IMG/VR virus record: IMGVR_UViG_3300041418_000150
Location: 1 to 25,875 of that record
From: a virus
Length of the DNA stretch: 25,875 nt
Direction: 5' to 3' (one strand)
Made by a program: the position numbers and the translations under genes. Position 1 is the first letter of the stretch. Every line of letters starts with the position of its first letter. The notes under the pieces were generated by a model, which searched no databases, was not told the DNA's origin, and saw nothing but the letters and a program-made list of their open reading frames with translations. Below, one piece after another: positions 3,636 through 21,471 of the stretch.

Positions 3636-6431
3636 ATGCCCGATATGACGGTCAGCAAATACGTTAAAGCGTTCACTTCGGTGCTCGCGGATCCAGATCC
3701 AAAGTTCGACAAATACCGTGAGTTTGCTACGCAAATTGAAAATGACCCCAAATACAAGAACGGCATCAGTGCCAATGATTTCGCACTGATGCTCCAAGCG
3801 CAGTTCCCGAAATCTGATGTCCATATCACCGATTTGAAAGTCCCCAGCGCCCCCAGCGCCGGCGGTGGCGATTATTTGTCGGCATTGAAGCGCGGTTTTC
3901 ATGAAGGCTCACAGGCCCTGGACGTGGCATACGCCAACCTTGCCGGCCTCGGTTCTGCCGGGCTGGAAGGCATCTCCAGATTGCCAGTTCCTGGGATGCA
4001 AAGAGTCGCCCCGGAGCAGGACCCGCTGCGGACGGGTGAAAAATATCTCCGCGGCTTGGCACAGCGTGAAGGCGCACGCGCACAGGCTATTCCGGAATCT
4101 CGCGGTGTTGGACCAAATATTGCCGAGGCGATTCCAGAAACAGCCGGGTCTCTTGTCCCGGCTTTAATTGGGGCTGAAGCCGGCGGGCTACCAGGCATGG
4201 CCACGGCGGCCGGTGTGCAATCGGCGGAGCAGGGGCCACTGCCCGCCGGAGCGGCGATGCTGGCGACCGAGATGGTGGGTAAAACCGTGCCGGGGGTGGA
4301 ACGGCGGGCAGCTAAAATCATTGGTGAACCAGCCGCGCGTTGGGCGGTCCCGGCGGCTTATGGCGCCGCGGCCGGTGGTGGAAGCTATCTCCGCGGCGCC
4401 TCACCAGAAAAAGCTCTAGCGCAGGGCCTTGTCACCGGCGGTATGGCCGCTACGCAAACTAGCCGTGGCGAACCAAAAGCTAAGACGACCGAAACTGCTG
4501 CGCCGAAAGGTGAATCTCCACCGGCGGCCCGCGAGCCAGGCCAGATTGATCGTACCGATTGGCCGGCTGATGTTCGTTCACTGCCAAAAGAACAACTCGA
4601 GGGTGCCTATCGGGCGGCTTACCACAAAACGCAGGAACTCCAGCCAAGGATGGATTTGGCGGATACCGCCTTAAGTGAGGCTCGTGCACGGCTGAAGAGC
4701 TATGAGGCCGAAAAGGACAAGCTGGATTTCAGTCCAACTCCGACATCAACCAAGGAATCCACAAGGATCGATAAGGATATTGCCGAGCAGAAAGATCACA
4801 TCAAAAAACTTGAAGAACGGCACCGCGTACTAAGCGCGGAGTATCGTAGATGGTCCAGCGCTTTCGGGGAGGCTCGCGATCGTGCCCAATTTGAAAAGGC
4901 ACCATGGTATTACGCGCAACCGCCGGCCGTCAGGGAAGAAGTTGGAGCGCCACAACAAAAGGCACTCGTGCGACAACAACCAACCGAAGTCGCTAAACAG
5001 CAACCGCCGATAAACGTACCACCGCAATACGGGGCAGAGCAATCTGGGCCTATCCGACAGCCGGGCACAGTGCTCGCCGGAGAACTCGCCGCTGCGCCAG
5101 TGGCTCGTGCGCCGTACCGGCAGCCAGGCCAGCCGCAAGCCCGTGTCGGCGCCGGGCAGGAGCCGGCCCAACTGCCGCCGGGCACTCAACCATTTGAGAT
5201 GATGGGCGCTCAGCCGCCAATGCCACGTGGTCGCAGAATCGAAGCTGGCGAACCAACAAGCGTGCGTGAGGCGATTGCAGAAAAACCGAAGGCGTCTGTC
5301 GAAAAACGTGAGGCGTCCGTAGGCAAACTAGCACCTAAAAAGGCCGCGGAGCCGCCAAAAGCCAGAGTCGCCAAGACAGCAGAACCACCGAAGGCGCGCC
5401 GTGAAGCCAAAGCCGCCACGAAGGCCGCGGAGCCGCGCAGTTTGACTGCTGGTACGCACTACGTGGTCAAGGACACCAACCCGGATCTCGGCCTGTACAA
5501 GGGCGAAACCGTGATCTACCGCGGCCCATACGGCGGCAAGTACGGTTTCGACGTCATCGACCCGGACACCGGCCAAAAGAGTCTGATGCAGATTGAAGCT
5601 TCGACGCCCATGAAGGACATCCTGGACAATCTCGAAGAGCCAGGCGAAAAAAAAAAGAGACCAGGTGACAAACACCTCGGAGACTCCCCGCAGGCGGTAA
5701 AGGCGAAGGCTGAAGAACAGCCCAGTATTCTGGGCGAGATTAAAAACAAGATCGGCGAATGGCTTGGGCCGAACGTACCACGCGAGGAAGCAACCGGCGA
5801 GAAAGTGCCCCAAGGTGAAGGCGATTACAGCGTGGCGTATTCGCGTGCCACACGTCGGCCGATTATCATGGCCCATTCCAAAGAGGAAATGGACAAGCTC
5901 GCGGGAGGCGACTACGGCGCCACGTTCCTGAAACCTGGCGACGTCGGGGTAGGCGGTGGGCCGCTCGCTCAGGTGGTCCGCAAATCGCTCCGTGAAGGCC
6001 CGGTCTCTGTAGTCGGTCCGGATGTGGCAGCGCCAATGGAGCCGGCAACACCCGGCAAAATGCAAGGCACGGTGCAGCACGAGGTCATCCACCAGATGCT
6101 CGGTGAAACCAAGGTGCCCACGGAAAAGTTCCTGTCAGCGCTGCCGCCGGATATCGCGGAGCCCATGCGCGCGCATCTGACCAAGAATTTTCCGAAGTCG
6201 AAGTGGGGCGAGGAAATCCCCGCGCACCTCGGCGCTTCGGGCGTGGTGGCGCCAGGCTCGGATCCGCGTGTCAACCAGGCGGAAACGATCGGCCTCTCGC
6301 CGGAACAGGCGCAAAAGGCATGGAAGGTCTATTTGTCACTATTAGCCAAGCAGGATCCCAAGAAAGCGGCTAAACTGAAAGCGCACATGGGTGCGGACAC
6401 GGATGCGACGCCGCCGGCGTCAAGGAAATAA
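3636..6431 (+). CDS. Large Pro/Ala-rich virion-type protein with C-terminal zinc metallopeptidase motif
   Basis: The 931-aa protein starts at ATG 3636, which has AAGGTGA five bases upstream; a GTG at 3627 lies inside that ribosome-binding site. After about 70 N-terminal residues come an Ala/Gly-rich part, a charged coiled-coil-like region (about 330-430) and a long Pro/Ala/Gln-rich linker (about 440-610). A small folded segment near 615-675 contains KYGFDVIDPDTGQKSL. Near the C-terminus the motif HEVIHQ (first His about residue 815) is followed about 45 residues later by WGEEIPAH, which fits HExxH...E zinc coordination in gluzincin-like or 'polyvalent protein' metallopeptidases. It lies 10 nt downstream of the 1168-aa gene. 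Probable role: a virion protein that is co-injected, or that processes virion or host proteins. A run of ten A at 5647-5656 is a possible slippage site just before the peptidase part. Confidence 0.75.
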   Translation: MPDMTVSKYVKAFTSVLADPDPKFDKYREFATQIENDPKYKNGISANDFALMLQAQFPKSDVHITDLKVPSAPSAGGGDYLSALKRGFHEGSQALDVAYANLAGLGSAGLEGISRLPVPGMQRVAPEQDPLRTGEKYLRGLAQREGARAQAIPESRGVGPNIAEAIPETAGSLVPALIGAEAGGLPGMATAAGVQSAEQGPLPAGAAMLATEMVGKTVPGVERRAAKIIGEPAARWAVPAAYGAAAGGGSYLRGASPEKALAQGLVTGGMAATQTSRGEPKAKTTETAAPKGESPPAAREPGQIDRTDWPADVRSLPKEQLEGAYRAAYHKTQELQPRMDLADTALSEARARLKSYEAEKDKLDFSPTPTSTKESTRIDKDIAEQKDHIKKLEERHRVLSAEYRRWSSAFGEARDRAQFEKAPWYYAQPPAVREEVGAPQQKALVRQQPTEVAKQQPPINVPPQYGAEQSGPIRQPGTVLAGELAAAPVARAPYRQPGQPQARVGAGQEPAQLPPGTQPFEMMGAQPPMPRGRRIEAGEPTSVREAIAEKPKASVEKREASVGKLAPKKAAEPPKARVAKTAEPPKARREAKAATKAAEPRSLTAGTHYVVKDTNPDLGLYKGETVIYRGPYGGKYGFDVIDPDTGQKSLMQIEASTPMKDILDNLEEPGEKKKRPGDKHLGDSPQAVKAKAEEQPSILGEIKNKIGEWLGPNVPREEATGEKVPQGEGDYSVAYSRATRRPIIMAHSKEEMDKLAGGDYGATFLKPGDVGVGGGPLAQVVRKSLREGPVSVVGPDVAAPMEPATPGKMQGTVQHEVIHQMLGETKVPTEKFLSALPPDIAEPMRAHLTKNFPKSKWGEEIPAHLGASGVVAPGSDPRVNQAETIGLSPEQAQKAWKVYLSLLAKQDPKKAAKLKAHMGADTDATPPASRK

Positions 6432-9586: not shown

Positions 9587-9795
9587 TTGGTTGACCTGTA
9601 TGGGATCACTCGAAGAGGCCCAGCACCATCAAAAATGCTACGGCATGTGAAGCATATGTGCAGCAAAGGCTGGGCACCCGGCCCCTGCACTGGCCCCTTC
9701 TCGAAATCTTGCGCGAAATACGTATCTGGGCCAAGGTTGTAGGTCGTCGATCCGCACTTGGCGCATGGGAAGTACTCCTGCAGCACGTACTTCAT
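9583..9795 (-). CDS. 70-aa zinc-ribbon protein
   Basis: ATG at 9795 overlaps the HNH gene stop as CTATGA, so this start (MKYVLQEYFPCAKCG) is preferred over an upstream one at 9828. Two CxxC pairs, CAKC near residue 11 and CFTC near residue 48, probably bind one zinc ion. The rest has no family signature I recognise. It lies between HNH and RusA genes and may bind nucleic acid. Confidence 0.7.
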   Translation of the reverse strand: MKYVLQEYFPCAKCGSTTYNLGPDTYFAQDFEKGPVQGPGAQPLLHICFTCRSIFDGAGPLRVIPYRSTK

Positions 9796-10154
9796 AGCCG
9801 GTTCTCGCGATGACGTTTGCGGTGGCAAGCCCCGCAGAGCCCATCGATGTTCCCGCGATCGCGCCGGCCTCGAGACCTCGGGATCACGTGATGTCCGTGC
9901 ATTGCCGCTCGCGTAACCGGCTTCCCACAGTCTTTGCAGCGGCCGCCCTGCTCAGCCCAGACACGGTCTTTCTCGATCTTGTAGCACTCTTCGATCAACA
10001 TCTTGAGCGTGACTTTCTCACCTTCGCTGCTGCCTGTGGTGACAAGTGACTTCCCCTCGTCGGTGTAGGCGCAGAATACCGAGATGGTTTCGCCGATATT
10101 GGAGAGCCGCTCAATCCGGTATCCGCAGATCTTCTCAGCTTGAGCTATCGTCAT
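9792..10154 (-). CDS. HNH endonuclease
   Basis: The C-terminal half carries a complete HNH nuclease: CKDC (Cys73/Cys76), GHHVIPRSRGRRD (His88/His89), GNIDGLC (Asn102, Cys107) and CHRKRH (Cys110, His111). The order CxxC-HHxxP-N-CxxCH is the ββα-metal fold with a structural zinc. The N-terminal 65 residues are unrelated (MTIAQAEKICGYRIE). It is a free-standing protein in the operon rather than part of an intron, since no interrupted gene is seen. It may serve packaging or recombination. It is nearly 9 kb of operon away from the Tas-like protein, so no link to that system can be claimed. Confidence 0.88.
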   Translation of the reverse strand: MTIAQAEKICGYRIERLSNIGETISVFCAYTDEGKSLVTTGSSEGEKVTLKMLIEECYKIEKDRVWAEQGGRCKDCGKPVTRAAMHGHHVIPRSRGRRDRGNIDGLCGACHRKRHRENRL

Positions 10155-10368
10155 TGTGTTTCATGGGTTGGCGAAATTTTGTCGCGTGGGGACAATCCGC
10201 GTAATGGCTCACGCCGTCTGCGGTGATGGGGTTCAGCTTGCCGGACTTCATTCGGACAAACCAGATGGTGCGGCCGCAGGCGGTGCAACTGGCCCGGTTG
10301 GTGATCATGTCCAAGAGCTTGACGATGTTTGTCCCCAGCTCGCTGGCGGTCAGCGCGCTCGCCATCAT
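10135..10368 (-). CDS. 77-aa zinc-binding phage protein
   Basis: The ATG at 10368 overlaps the stop of the ParB-like gene (GCATGATG). CTACGRTIWFVRMKSGKLNP is followed by SHYADCPHA, so two Cys plus Cys/His pairs form a likely zinc site. Proteins with CxxCGxxIxWxxxxxGKxxPxD...SHFxxCPxA are common and uncharacterised in phages. It overlaps the HNH gene start by 20 nt, consistent with coupled translation. Confidence 0.7.
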   Translation of the reverse strand: MMASALTASELGTNIVKLLDMITNRASCTACGRTIWFVRMKSGKLNPITADGVSHYADCPHATKFRQPMKHNDDSSS

Positions 10369-11420
10369 GCCACCACTTCGTCGACCACAGCCATAGGCCG
10401 CGGGCTCACCGGTCCCTTGAAGGGCACAAGCCGGCGGGTACGCTTCCCGGAGTTGATGTGATTGATCCAGTACTGGTAAAGCAATAACTGCGACTTGCCG
10501 CTCGCGGCCACGAGGTGTGCGATCCCAGCGTCAGTGATCGGGAAGTGTGCCATCTTTATCCTGACACTGCGATCGATGCTAAGTTTCGTGCCGTCCCAGA
10601 AATTCCGGTGGTCTGAAATGACCGACGCCAACACGACCAGAAACCCTTGCCGCAAAAATGGTGCCGATTCTTTGAATGCCAACGTGCGAACATGCCAGCA
10701 TTCATCGACCAAGTCGAAGAAACACTTGACATTCTCGCGCATGATATTGCGGCCGACGTTGTTCATAGTCTTCTGCATCGACGGCATGCGTGACGTCAAG
10801 TTGCCGGCCTTGCCTGGCCCGAATTGGCCGTGTAGTCTGGCGGAGACGCCAACGAACACATTCTCCGTTAGTAAGTGATGCCGTTGCATCGCTTGGCCCC
10901 ATGATACCCGGTCGTAAAGTACGAAGCTGCTGTCCATGGTCAGGTTATACAGCATCTCGAGTACGGTGTATTCGTGGCGGAAGTTGCGCAATAGGATGTT
11001 GGGCGACAGCTTTGCCGCGGTCGTGTTGAGCATCCGGAAGCGCTGCATTTCGCTTTTCTCGTCGGTGTTGAAGTGCACGATGGCGCCCAGGCGGGGGATG
11101 AATTCGCCGCCGCGCGCGAGTTCCTTCGCCGCGGTGACTCGCTGCAAGCCGTCGATAATGTAGACGTCATCATGCAAGTACACCTCGCCTTCACGCTCGG
11201 TGTAGTTGCCGCCACGCATCCCGAGATCGATATCCGGGACGGTTTTGTCCTTCACCGCAAGCATGAGGTCTTTGATTTTGACTTTCGTTAATATTTCCCG
11301 CTGATAGTCGCCAACTTTCAGCAGAAATAGCGAGTCCGGATCGATGACACCACGTAGAATGATGTCTTTCGTTTCAGTTTCATCCAGAGCCGCGTTGGTG
11401 AATTTCACCGATTCGCGCAT
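10365..11420 (-). CDS. ParB/DGQHR-like (DUF262-like) protein
   Basis: This 351-aa protein has IDGLQRVTAAKEL at residues 89-101, close to the DGQHR/DGQQR motif of DndB-type and DUF262/GmrS proteins and the ParB/sulfiredoxin fold. It also has an FNTDEKSEMQRFRMLNTTAAKLS stretch like the 'F...N....KLS' segment of those families (each part under 20 residues). Such proteins bind DNA or nucleotides, and several act in DNA modification or defence and anti-defence. The ribosome-binding site is strong (GGAGGTGA, 5 nt before the ATG). The C-terminal half contains helices without a motif I know. The exact function is unknown. Confidence 0.7.
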   Translation of the reverse strand: MRESVKFTNAALDETETKDIILRGVIDPDSLFLLKVGDYQREILTKVKIKDLMLAVKDKTVPDIDLGMRGGNYTEREGEVYLHDDVYIIDGLQRVTAAKELARGGEFIPRLGAIVHFNTDEKSEMQRFRMLNTTAAKLSPNILLRNFRHEYTVLEMLYNLTMDSSFVLYDRVSWGQAMQRHHLLTENVFVGVSARLHGQFGPGKAGNLTSRMPSMQKTMNNVGRNIMRENVKCFFDLVDECWHVRTLAFKESAPFLRQGFLVVLASVISDHRNFWDGTKLSIDRSVRIKMAHFPITDAGIAHLVAASGKSQLLLYQYWINHINSGKRTRRLVPFKGPVSPRPMAVVDEVVA

Positions 11421-18031: not shown

Positions 18032-18193
18032 TCAGGTTTTCCAGTGCCGGCCGACGTGCCAACCGTGACAGCGCGGGCAGAAGTATACCTCCCCGGAATA
18101 GCCAGATATCCTCTTGAGAATCGAGCGAAGTTGGCTTTCCGCAGCGCCGCGTGACAAGTGAGAATGCTTCTTCGTCGTGCGGCAATGTTTCAT
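18032..18193 (-). CDS. 53-aa zinc-ribbon protein coupled to tas
   Basis: ATG at 18193 overlaps the stop of the Tas-like gene (CAATGA), so the two are translationally coupled. The product starts MKHCRTTKKHSHLSRGAAES and ends with VYFCPRCHGWHVGRHWKT. The latter matches the end of a widespread group of tiny zinc proteins with 'VYxCxxCxGWHLT'. The metal site would be CPRC plus nearby His and perhaps the N-terminal His/Cys. It has a basic, helical first half. No catalytic motif is seen. The position directly after tas makes it a candidate accessory factor, but such proteins are also common alone in phages. Confidence 0.7.
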   Translation of the reverse strand: MKHCRTTKKHSHLSRGAAESQLRSILKRISGYSGEVYFCPRCHGWHVGRHWKT

Positions 18194-19008
18194 TGCGGCC
18201 AGTTGGGGACCTCGATCATATGGACATGGCCTAAGTGCTCAAGCGAGTACGGCTTCGGCGGCGCCTTCTTGTACTCGATCATGTAGGCGACGTGGTGCCA
18301 ATGTGCCAAAAATATTTTGACTGCCCAGCGCTTCGCGCGGGCGTGGATGTGCGCCGGCGGCAGCTTCCCGGCCAAGTAGCACTGCTTGGCGACCGTGTCC
18401 TTCCGGTAGTTTTTCCGGGCGAGAGCGACCTTGGCCTGGTCCGCGAACTCGCCCGCGTCATTCCGCGCGGTCTCCAACTCTTTGCGTTGGACGTAGAACT
18501 TGCCGTAAACGTCGTTCTCGTTAGTCGATACCTTGACAAAGCTCTCGCCGATTTTCCAGCACAGAGTTTTGAGGTCGGCATTCCACGGCCGCTTCTGATT
18601 GGCTTCCCAGGTGACCGTGGGGTCGAGGCCGGCGAAGCGCCAAATGTGGCCGACGGTTGGGCACTTTGTGATGTCGATGTGCGCGGCGAGGCCGGCCGAG
18701 ATGATGGGGCCGATCCCGGTGATCGACTTCGCCCACAAGCAAATCTCGCTGGTCTCGGTCCATTGGTCAAGTGCACGGTGGATCTGTGACTCAATGATTT
18801 CGCCTTGCCGCACCAGCCAGCCGATCAGATCGTTCGGCTGTTTCGACTTCTCCAGGGCGCGGTACTGATTAGCCGATACCTTGCGATACTCCTGCAGGGC
18901 GTAGTAGCCGTTGACGATGTAACCTACTTCGTCAAGGGATAAGTCTTTGGCTGCCATCGCCAGGTCTCGTTTGAGACGCTGGACAGGCTCTAAGGCGTCG
19001 TAGTTCAT
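18190..19008 (-). CDS. Tas-like protein (TasA type), Transposase_20/Nop-like core, no nuclease
   Basis: This 272-aa protein has a long charged helical N-terminal part (about 1-90, coiled-coil-like). The core SITGIGPIISAGLAAHIDI (about 95-113), then VGHIWRFAGLDP (about 119-130), is the helix-hairpin-helix signature shared by the C-terminal domain of IS110/IS116/IS902 transposases and Nop-type RNA-binding proteins. The basic C-terminal region contains HIHARAKRW and YMIEYKKAPP. No DEDD/RuvC catalytic motif or HNH motif is visible, so it would bind but not cut DNA by itself. The 36-bp-period array immediately upstream identifies it as a TIGR-associated (Tas) protein, TasA-like in the TIGR-Tas scheme, rather than a transposase. 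No transposon ends are seen. The start ATG 19008 has AAGGAG, formed by the last spacer and repeat of the array. Confidence 0.85.
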   Translation of the reverse strand: MNYDALEPVQRLKRDLAMAAKDLSLDEVGYIVNGYYALQEYRKVSANQYRALEKSKQPNDLIGWLVRQGEIIESQIHRALDQWTETSEICLWAKSITGIGPIISAGLAAHIDITKCPTVGHIWRFAGLDPTVTWEANQKRPWNADLKTLCWKIGESFVKVSTNENDVYGKFYVQRKELETARNDAGEFADQAKVALARKNYRKDTVAKQCYLAGKLPPAHIHARAKRWAVKIFLAHWHHVAYMIEYKKAPPKPYSLEHLGHVHMIEVPNWPQ

Positions 19009-19009
19009 G

Positions 19010-19740
19010 TGTGTCGCTCCTTGTACGTGGTGCTCTCAGGTTTATTGGCTCGCTCCGACTATCTGGTACTCTCAAGCGGTATGGCTCGCTCCTTGTCCAT
19101 GGTACTCTCCGGCAGTTTGGCTTATTCACACTGTTTGGTGCTCTCCGGCTTAATGGCTCGCTCGGCATCGATGGTACTCTCTCGCGGAGTGGCTCGCTCA
19201 GGAAATTTGGTACTCCCTGAGAATATGGCTCGCTCCCAGTTTATGGTGCCCTCAGGCATGATGGCTCGCTCCGGTAGTGTTGGTGCTCTCATTCGACTTG
19301 GCTCGCTCTGGGCATATGGTAGTCTCATCGTCTGGTGGCTCGCTCAGAGAGAATGGTACTCTCGCTTCAGTTGGCTCGCTCAGATTTGATGGTGCTCTCC
19401 GATTGATTAGCTCGCTCAAGATAAGTGGTGCTTTCCTCGCATTTGGCTCGCTCACATTCTGTGGTGCTCTTGAACAAGATGGCTCGCTCAGGCTATATGG
19501 CCCTCTCACCTCACATGGCTCGCTCGGATGATATGGTGCTCTCATAATGGTTGGCTCGCTCGCGGAATTTGGTGCTCTCCCGAAACTGGCTCGCTCGACT
19601 GTCCTGGTGCCCTCGATTCAAATGGCTCGCTTCCAGCGTCTGGTACTCTCAATCCGGATGGCTCGCTCCTCTACTTTGGTACTCTCCGGTCTAATGGCTC
19701 GCTCCCGTATAGTGGTACTCTCAGATTCAATGGCTCAAGG
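19010..19740 (-). repeat. TIGR-like array: 41 alternating 10-nt repeats, 40 spacers
   Basis: Two repeat types alternate strictly. In - strand (tas sense) they are A = GAGCGAGCCA and B = GAGAGTACCA or GAGAGCACCA. There are 21 A copies (16 identical) and 20 B copies (7 with TAC, 6 with GCA-type centre, 7 single or double variants). The 40 spacers are all different; 37 are 8 nt, two are 9 nt (19272-19280, 19327-19335) and one is 7 nt (19580-19586). The unit is 18 bp and the A+B period is 36 bp. Degenerate A copies end the array at 19010 and 19731, and one internal A copy (19118) is damaged. As recalled for TIGR-Tas, such arrays are cut into about 36-nt guide RNAs with two short spacers, each pairing with one DNA strand. 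Direction of transcription is inferred from the flanking genes. Confidence 0.9.
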
Positions 19741-21471
19741 TTTTACCGCCTTAGCGACTGCCAAGGCATTCAGCCGGTCGGAAATCCCTCCCTTCGACCA
19801 CTCCGTGTTGCCGGCGGCATACTGCTTCATAGCAAACTGGTAAAGCTGAATCCCATCAAAGTGTTTGCGGCGCAAGTGCCCGTCACGATAATAGAGTGCC
19901 CAGCACTGCTTCTGATTTGGTGGCTCGCTCTTCCACTTGGCTGAGGCGAGTACGAGGCCGATCTGTTCGCGCGGCACCGCGGCGTCACCGGCTGTGAAAG
20001 CGTCTTCCTTCTTGCCGGCAAACAAAATCCTGGCGTGTCCTTCCGTGTTCTCTTGGAGCTCCCACTGGCCGAGCACGTCCTGATTGATGTAGAACGTTCG
20101 ATCGGCCAGGCTCAGCCGGTAGCCGGCGATGCCGTCCTTGACCCAACCGAATTTGCTCATGCGCTGGACCTCGGCCGGGATCTTGATAGGCCCGAGCAAG
20201 TCGACTTTTCTGACGAGCGCCTCGATCTGGCGCAGGCTGGTGTAGCCCTCGATGTCCAGGCCCGGCGTCTGTCTCAGGAGACCCTCAAGCTGCTTGGCGG
20301 TCCGGGTGGCGCTCTTTCCGGCGAGGTCGAAGTCGGCCCGTAGCCCGAACAGCGTCGGTAGGGTCACAATGGAGTGCCTGCCGGTGTTGTCGCAGAAGTC
20401 TACCCAGATGGCGAATTGCTTGATGAAATCCCCGGTGTAGGTGGCGGCATCCTCAGGCGCCGGGTATGGCCGAAGCTGCCGGCCGAGCTGCTGAATGAAT
20501 AATCCAGGCGACTTTGTCGGTCTGGTACCGAGTCCAACGGTGCACCGCGGATTGTCCCAACCTTCGGAGAGTACGCCGCACGAGGCCAGGCCCAAGAGGT
20601 CACCACATTCGTGCCGGCGGTAGAGGACTTCACGCTCGTTATCCGGGGTCTCGCTGCTGATTGCCTCGCAGGAGATTCCATAGTGCCAGAAGACGTCCGC
20701 TAAGTCCTTCGAATGCTGGATGGTCACCGTAAACGCCGCAAACGTCAGGCCAGCAGCCAGCTTCTGGTACTCCTGAACGACCAAGCGGTTGCGTTCGAAT
20801 GTATTCACAGCGTCCGACAGCTCGCCCTCTTTGAAATCGCCGCTCCGCGTACCAACATCACTGATGTCGGTCATGGTGCTGACGTGATAGCCGGTGGGTT
20901 CCACCAGCCAGTTCGCCTCGACCATCTCGCGGATCGAGCGCGCGAACACGATCTTGTCGAAGACCTTTTCGAGACCGATCTTGTCGCCGCGCTTCGGGGT
21001 CGCTGTGAAGCCAACGAGCAGCTTGCCAGGAACGCGGTTCTCGGCGCCCTTGTAGACCTGGAAATACTCAAGAACGCCGAGGTATGACGGGCTGATTACG
21101 TGGTGCGCTTCGTCAACGATAACGACTTTCACGATCGCCGGGTTGAAGCGTTCGCGTCGCTTGGCGTGTTGCAGTGTCTGGATCGAACCAACAATGACAT
21201 CAGCAAATGGGTGAGCGCGCCGGCTGCCCGCTTCGATTTCTATCGCCAAGGACGGATTGTATTTCGCCAGCTTCTCCGCATTCTGCTCGATCAACTTATC
21301 GCGATGTACCAGCACCAGCATCTGCTGGGGCAATCTCAAGTTCAGGACTTCAGGCAGGTGTGAAAAGATCAGAGTTTTGCCGGTTCCCGTAGGAAGTGCC
21401 ACGAGCTGATTCTCGATGCCGGCGCTGCGGATCTCTTCCAGACACTCTTGCTGGTAGTCGCGTAGGCTCAT
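19735..21471 (-). CDS. SF2 DEAH helicase, XPB/UvsW-like
   Basis: This 578-aa protein carries the SF2 helicase motifs in order: RDYQQECLEEI (Q-like), LPTGTGKT (28-33), VDEAHH (DEAH at 120-123), FTATPKRGD (about 155-163), GVLSEGWDNP (motif V) and QQLGRQLRPY (motif VI). It is a DNA translocase of the type found in many phages for fork remodelling or recombination-dependent replication. It is translated from ATG 21471, which overlaps the upstream gene stop. Its stop codon TGA (19735-19737) is inside the first repeat of the TIGR-like array, so helicase, array and tas are probably on one transcript. An exact A repeat also occurs in its coding sequence at 19921-19930. Confidence 0.9.
   Translation of the reverse strand: MSLRDYQQECLEEIRSAGIENQLVALPTGTGKTLIFSHLPEVLNLRLPQQMLVLVHRDKLIEQNAEKLAKYNPSLAIEIEAGSRRAHPFADVIVGSIQTLQHAKRRERFNPAIVKVVIVDEAHHVISPSYLGVLEYFQVYKGAENRVPGKLLVGFTATPKRGDKIGLEKVFDKIVFARSIREMVEANWLVEPTGYHVSTMTDISDVGTRSGDFKEGELSDAVNTFERNRLVVQEYQKLAAGLTFAAFTVTIQHSKDLADVFWHYGISCEAISSETPDNEREVLYRRHECGDLLGLASCGVLSEGWDNPRCTVGLGTRPTKSPGLFIQQLGRQLRPYPAPEDAATYTGDFIKQFAIWVDFCDNTGRHSIVTLPTLFGLRADFDLAGKSATRTAKQLEGLLRQTPGLDIEGYTSLRQIEALVRKVDLLGPIKIPAEVQRMSKFGWVKDGIAGYRLSLADRTFYINQDVLGQWELQENTEGHARILFAGKKEDAFTAGDAAVPREQIGLVLASAKWKSEPPNQKQCWALYYRDGHLRRKHFDGIQLYQFAMKQYAAGNTEWSKGGISDRLNALAVAKAVKP

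Follow-up and report, generated by a model that had tools for sequence, protein, structure and literature searches.

Among the effectors of TIGR-Tas systems, the stand-alone protein TasA is the commonest, and its function, its natural targets and the dynamics of its guide arrays were left open by the work that described it (Faure et al., 2025; PMC12045711). The related effector TasR bends its target DNA by nearly 180 degrees, and the same has been suggested for TasA, while the processing of the guide RNAs (tigRNAs) cuts within the edge repeats of the array and requires Tas (Faure et al., 2025; PMC12045711). A Rho-independent terminator after the array is typical, although not universal. The subject of this report is a tasA gene with its guide array in a stretch of 25,875 nucleotides of viral DNA (IMG/VR record IMGVR_UViG_3300041418_000150, positions 1 to 25,875; hereafter the window). 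On the evidence of sequence and model, the product of positions 18190-19008 is almost certainly TasA, a nuclease-free member of the TIGR-Tas family; protein and array are of a kind already known (PMC12045711). New here are the swap of a single spacer in an otherwise identical phage and, in the lysogen KBS 96, a cluster of matches between three of the six guides and another mobile element, and we lean towards the reading that the phage TIGR-TasA system silences rival mobile elements under RNA guidance. No assignment of natural TIGR targets was found in the literature, in a search that did not extend to the subscription papers on the TasH structures of 2026. The gene and its array are laid out as follows:

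18190..19008, minus strand: tasA, 272 amino acids, coiled-coil/Nop-domain protein without a nuclease domain (from the frame, profile and fold searches)
19014..19736, minus strand: TIGR dual-repeat array of 20 units with a period of 36 (from the sequence and repeat units)
19731..19736, minus strand: 5'-truncated edge repeat GAGCCA at the array start, overlapping the helicase TGA stop (19735-19737)
19014..19022, minus strand: last edge repeat, GAGCGA, truncated on its 3' side; together with the end of spacer B20 it forms the tasA Shine-Dalgarno sequence AAGGAG (19017-19022)

The frame at 18190-19008 on the minus strand comprises 272 codons of a soil-phage gene. A preliminary description, made from the letters alone, had proposed a stand-alone, nuclease-less Tas protein consisting of a helical part, a GIGP/Transposase_20 core and a basic C-terminus, and both the layout and the assignment were borne out. 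Pfam PF02371 (Transposase_20) matches residues 94-133 with a marginal E-value of 2e-4, and the predicted structure has a long helical part, the core and a basic C-terminal helix. The NCBIfam model NF052498 (TIGR-Tas) matches with an E-value of 1e-54 and 185.8 bits (cut-off 100). Direct phmmer searches of PDB returned TasR (9mty, 2.8e-12) and TasH (21kl, 3.8e-8), and a profile of 68 relatives returned TasR (1.3e-23) and TasH (4.9e-14), followed by IS621 (1.4e-4). The AlphaFold2 model (mean predicted local distance difference test score, pLDDT, of 89.6) matches TasH with a Z-score of 20.1 over model residues 22-272, starting from TasH residue 65, and TasR (9mty) with a Z-score of 18.8 over TasR residues 111-322 at 25% identity; lower ranks are taken by IS621 (Z 13.7) and unrelated helical proteins (Z at most 8.6). 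Both Tas matches are confined to the Nop parts, and because TasH and TasR align only there, the protein is identified as TasA with neither nuclease domain. Searches with Pfam, PHROGs, a PDB profile and the fold found no RuvC, HNH or DEDD domain. Nop5 of box C/D snoRNPs, marked by an inactive RuvC-like N-domain and a fibrillarin partner, is not among the listed fold matches, which does not imply its exclusion. In 50,697 phage records, the sole phage match by tblastn was TasH of Salicola phage CGphi29, while PADLOC left TasA unmatched and an Rfam search gave no match. The database names are at variance with this member, as PHROG 4285 is called "transposase" and NF052498 "RNA-guided endonuclease", whereas the window protein has no nuclease domain.

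The guide array that abuts tasA, to which the preliminary description had not linked the gene, is the strongest evidence for a TIGR-Tas system. Each unit at 19014-19736 consists of an edge repeat (GAGCGAGCCA), spacer A of 8 nt, a loop repeat (GAGAGYACCA) and spacer B of 8 nt, where both repeats measure 10 nt, within the 8-12 nt usual for the two alternating repeats of TIGR arrays, and all spacers have 8 nt except for three, two with 9 nt and one with 7 nt. GAGCGAGCCA is taken as the edge repeat because it is truncated at both array ends, as in TIGR arrays. CCA (box C) closes nearly all copies of both repeats, which sets the direction of the array to the strand of tasA and of most neighbouring genes; at the box D position both repeats begin with GA, diverged from UG yet alike. 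The array is squeezed between genes, as it begins inside the helicase TGA stop and ends as the tasA ribosome-binding site, the last edge repeat GAGCGA itself lying at 19014-19019. No convincing Rho-independent terminator was seen between array and tasA, and the array runs into the gene. Since processing cuts edge repeats and the last one is the tasA ribosome-binding site, feedback is plausible, in which guide processing would damp TasA synthesis. Among loci with an upstream array, the strict form of this arrangement (GAGCG or GAGTG) occurs in 6 of 27, and three more with GAGG were recognized by eye.

The pairing of gene and array is widespread. Profile scans of IMG/VR returned 395, 309 and 409 stretches encoding relatives (overlapping sets), and GTDB genomes contributed ten, among them five Acidobacteria records, Halomonas NO4, Propionivibrio and a Gemmatimonadetes metagenome-assembled genome (MAG). 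A chain of at least 12 array repeats lies on the tas strand in 210 of 235 relative loci and on the other strand in one, in a set that is redundant, with some contigs read more than once. In 80 loci, the array was placed downstream of the gene (45), upstream (11), on both sides (17) or was not found (7).

Comparison of closely related phages indicates how such arrays change. Three contigs (G001-G003) are near-copies of the window, and over 21,066 bp one of them (G003, IMGVR_UViG_3300043776_000184) differs from it in a single spacer, with the repeats intact:

19669..19676, minus strand: AAGTAGAG, the B spacer of unit 2, in whose place IMGVR_UViG_3300043776_000184 has TGGACACG

The replacement TGGACACG is one letter off spacer B of unit 18 (TGGACAAG). 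The sole difference between loci L244 and L247 is the tandem duplication of one 36-nt unit, which explains an apparent spacer divergence of 40% as an alignment artefact. More generally, related phages have stretches of identical spacers in the same order, interrupted where blocks were inserted, lost or replaced. Paralogous units diverge mainly by ordinary transitions, and a retroelement-style mutation of spacers was discarded, as transitions predominate and no adenine bias is seen. Spacer G+C tracks genome G+C (r = 0.73). Guides common to unrelated phages numbered 51 versus 36 expected, mostly in loci that look related, and sharing between unrelated phages was not upheld. As read from these alignments, array turnover involves duplication, the exchange of blocks and, in at least one case, the replacement of a single spacer, with no visible adaptation gene.

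Several further loci touch on array change. In L124, the arrays flanking tasA on both sides (5019-5352 and 6175-6420) contain an identical complete unit (TCTCCAGC / GCGAGAAT); because it is present on both sides, whole units can move between arrays. In L127 (5750-5977, Propionivibrio aalborgensis), two units one base apart (GAAATAAC/GAAGTAAC with CACTGGTA) look as if two variants of one target were covered, and no target was found in the organism's own genome. In the pairs L055/L057, L222/L240, L182/L185 and L050/L052, the arrays are identical or nearly so while the flanks or the tasA N-terminus are several percent apart, which suggests that arrays move as modules by recombination.

The form of a target was derived from the cleavage rule reported for the family, by which the cut falls on the 5' side of the nucleotide that pairs with base 5 of the spacer and leaves 3' overhangs (PMC12045711): spacer A comes first and then, after a gap of 0-2, the reverse complement of spacer B. 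The cultured isolate Acidobacteriaceae bacterium KBS 96 (L126) was chosen as a lysogen; its prophage at 0.136 Mb has tasA with an array of six units. The search for unit 1 covered 237 family genomes including KBS 96, and that for units 2-6 KBS 96 alone. Unit 1 was set aside, with one match in the 237 genomes (not in KBS 96) against four control matches. Unit 2 has a 16/16 match in the predicted geometry with gap 0 at 6,329,962, in about codons 9-14 of an excisionase-like gene (86 amino acids, HTH_17) that belongs to the early operon, running leftward, of an integrated element. When the surrounding 120 kb were read for further guide matches, units 5 and 6 were found to match the neighbouring replication gene, the former with two mismatches, both at the spacer edge (spacer A positions 1-2), and the latter with three. 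The matches of these three units (2, 5 and 6), each with gap 0, fall inside a span of 925 bp. Such a three-unit cluster is unique in 1.40 Mb of KBS 96 DNA, was found neither in 40 shuffles of the 1.40 Mb nor in five other geometries or gaps, and its score was reached by none of 400 regional shuffles. By hand estimate, the exact unit 2 match had a prior chance of 0.02-0.06 for six units, and two more units within 1 kb a chance of about 0.003. The cluster is good but single-case evidence; like family membership, array anatomy and spacer replacement, it is among the steps shown by this analysis.

The matched element encodes a divergent XRE repressor, excisionase-like genes, an O-like replication protein, an HK97-type capsid, a head protease and a tyrosine integrase. 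At 6332103, 6321951 and 6319361 there are direct repeats of 26-27 bp, of which that at 6332103 falls in the 3' end of a tRNA-Glu gene, and the repeats bound an integrated, capsid-bearing element of about 10.15 kb that is separate from the tasA prophage. The tandem repeats over G017:C1 6319361-6332131 resemble attachment (att) sites and make up this element plus a 2.6-kb remnant. No terminase gene was recognized in the element and only one tail-like protein, which is why it is regarded as a satellite or reduced prophage. In IMG/VR, no relatives of its replication protein were found, and the exact unit 2 target occurs in 94 stretches, about the chance level for an A-rich pattern in a collection of this size.

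On the preferred reading of RNA-guided silencing, it is an even question whether the TIGR-TasA arrays of phages serve as libraries of replaceable guides for silencing early operons of rivals (satellites, prophages) in the same host, with the KBS 96 match as a natural target, which the discoverers of TIGR systems could not assign. Expression, processing, binding and silencing are inferred steps. The array transcript would be processed into 36-nt tigRNAs, one of which would be held by a TasA dimer, and spacers A and B would pair with opposite DNA strands, so that a 16-bp site is opened and bent but left uncut (as extrapolated from PMC12045711). A roadblock is the simplest reading because TasA has no nuclease; to judge by KBS 96, the TasA-tigRNA complex may sit in the first (excisionase, replication) genes of rivals and block transcription or replication, with several guides per rival element. 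Since guides are swapped, dropped and renewed, the phage could adapt as its rivals change. The preliminary description had suggested that the protein could silence host defence or competitor phages, and the competitor part gains indirect support from the three of six guides in the KBS 96 lysogen, though not from the window's virus; no host-defence target was seen, having hardly been looked for. KBS 96, a cultured lysogen with three guides on one co-resident element, makes the questions of TasA function and target directly testable, and the near-identical phages one spacer or one unit apart show array change in action with no linked adaptation gene.

Several results weigh against this reading. 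Matching of 1780 spacer pairs to 1.29 Mb of TasA-phage DNA gave no excess, nor did 1802 loop-centred units against 1.58 Mb. The target cluster was seen in one lysogen only, whose first match came from searching, at the hand-estimated prior chance of about 0.02-0.06, and partial tests with Halomonas NO4 (two units) and Propionivibrio (one unit) gave nothing beyond chance. For the window array, scans of IMG/VR for the unit 2 target returned 11 and 1 stretches. A tentative target is a 101-kb phage (IMGVR_UViG_3300028801_000008; L277 8219, G013 75134-75819), where an exact match to unit 2 lies 670 bp from a match to unit 18 that has two mismatches, the chance being about 0.02 given the first match (hand estimate) and the case too weak to claim.

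The genomic setting of the gene bears on the alternatives. Two further features adjoin the locus:

19735..21471, minus strand: superfamily 2 (ResIII/DEAD) DNA helicase gene, upstream of the array
18032..18193, minus strand: open reading frame of 53 amino acids with a CPRCHGWH motif, its start overlapping the tasA stop (ATGA)

The helicase gene is probably co-transcribed with array and tasA, which sit in the early replication/recombination module of the phage with an O-like initiator, DnaB, RecT and a helicase. In 80 neighbourhoods of relatives, no family besides tasA recurs widely, there is no sign of a partner nuclease, no integrase family recurs beside tasA, and neither does the 53-amino-acid frame. 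The window also has a ParB-like gene (10365-11420) and an HNH-domain gene (9792-10154), which are not linked to tasA. A TasParB variant was considered, and the ParB-like gene lies 7 kb from tasA, is not in its operon and was found only in near-identical phages. In an Acidobacteriota MAG (L130:5974-7395, JAKOTR010000047.1), the N-part of TasA (phrog_4285, residues 53-162) is fused to a ParB-like part (residues 200-374) and the Nop C-terminus is missing; this fusion is a counterpart of the tasA-tasParB operons reported by Faure et al. (PMC12045711).

Given such a module, TasA and its array could act as a programmable repressor or activator with fixed guides at phage or host promoters, for which a non-cutting DNA binder would be suited. 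We regard such a regulator as unlikely: the window guides have no match at up to two mismatches on their own contig, the spacer pairs show no excess in the 1.29 Mb of related phage DNA, spacers are swapped while the rest of the genome is unchanged, unlike fixed regulatory sites, and the only full KBS 96 match found lies on a mobile element. Self or sibling targeting was likewise rejected, with no self match at up to two mismatches and no geometry giving an excess of targets in related phage DNA. The recruitment of a separate nuclease or partner, such as a ParB-like protein, to guided sites is suggested by the reported tasA-tasParB operons, by the fusion in L130 and by the ParB-like and HNH genes of the window. 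We consider it quite unlikely, as only tasA recurs widely in the 80 neighbourhoods and the ParB-like gene is restricted to near-identical phages, and the earlier proposal that the protein recruits another enzyme thus found no support.

It has also been speculated by Faure et al. that DNA bending by TasA aids recombination, as RNA-guided help in phage integration, excision or replication. The bend of about 180 degrees imposed by TasR (PMC12045711), neighbours such as RecT, helicases and the replication initiator, and the KBS 96 target inside an excisionase-like gene fit this idea, yet twenty diverse guides exceed the need of a fixed att site, the KBS 96 matches fall within coding sequence rather than at the tRNA att repeats, and no integrase family recurs beside tasA, which makes it improbable. 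Practically no credence is given to a domesticated or degraded IS110-family transposase with incidental repeats. The Pfam Transposase_20 match, the PHROGs name "transposase" and the distant fold match to IS621 point that way, but the protein has no DEDD domain, transposon ends were looked for around the gene and not found, NCBIfam gives 22 bits for IS110 (cut-off 140) versus 186 for TIGR-Tas (cut-off 100), and an array lies beside the gene in nearly all relatives. The IS110 match covers only residues 70-135, and the fold comparison likewise places Tas proteins (Z 18.8-20.1) above IS621 (13.7); identity as an IS110 transposase is refuted by the array association (210/235) and the NCBIfam scores.

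Set beside described TIGR-TasA systems, e.g. that of Flavonifractor plautii (FpTasA), the window system has in common a solo, phage-borne Nop-domain protein with an adjoining array, units of 36 nt, a CCA (box C) at the end of both the edge and the loop repeat, and edge repeats truncated at both array ends, but its spacers are mostly of 8 nt instead of 9, its repeats start with GA instead of UG, its array of 20 units exceeds the usual 5-15, and this array stands upstream of tasA and continues into it with no terminator in between, the last edge repeat being the ribosome-binding site (PMC12045711). TasH of Salicola phage CGphi29 (PDB 9vzx, 21kl, 9w04) is the closest solved fold (Z about 20), at about 20% identity, and has an N-terminal HNH nuclease before residue 64, while TasR of Thermoproteota (PDB 9mty) aligns in its Nop part and has an N-terminal RuvC nuclease before residue 111; both nucleases are absent from the window TasA. 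With the IS110/IS621 bridge-RNA recombinases (PDB 8wt6), it has a distant RNA-binding fold in common (Z 13.7), although recombinase function is not expected of a protein with neither DEDD domain nor transposon ends. Type IV and V-M CRISPR and dCas9-like silencing differ in that the window system uses an unrelated protein and two short split spacers on opposite strands and has no spacer-acquisition genes, but they may work in a like manner, with an RNA guiding the protein to bind rival mobile elements and not cleave them, an analogy drawn by Faure et al. (PMC12045711).
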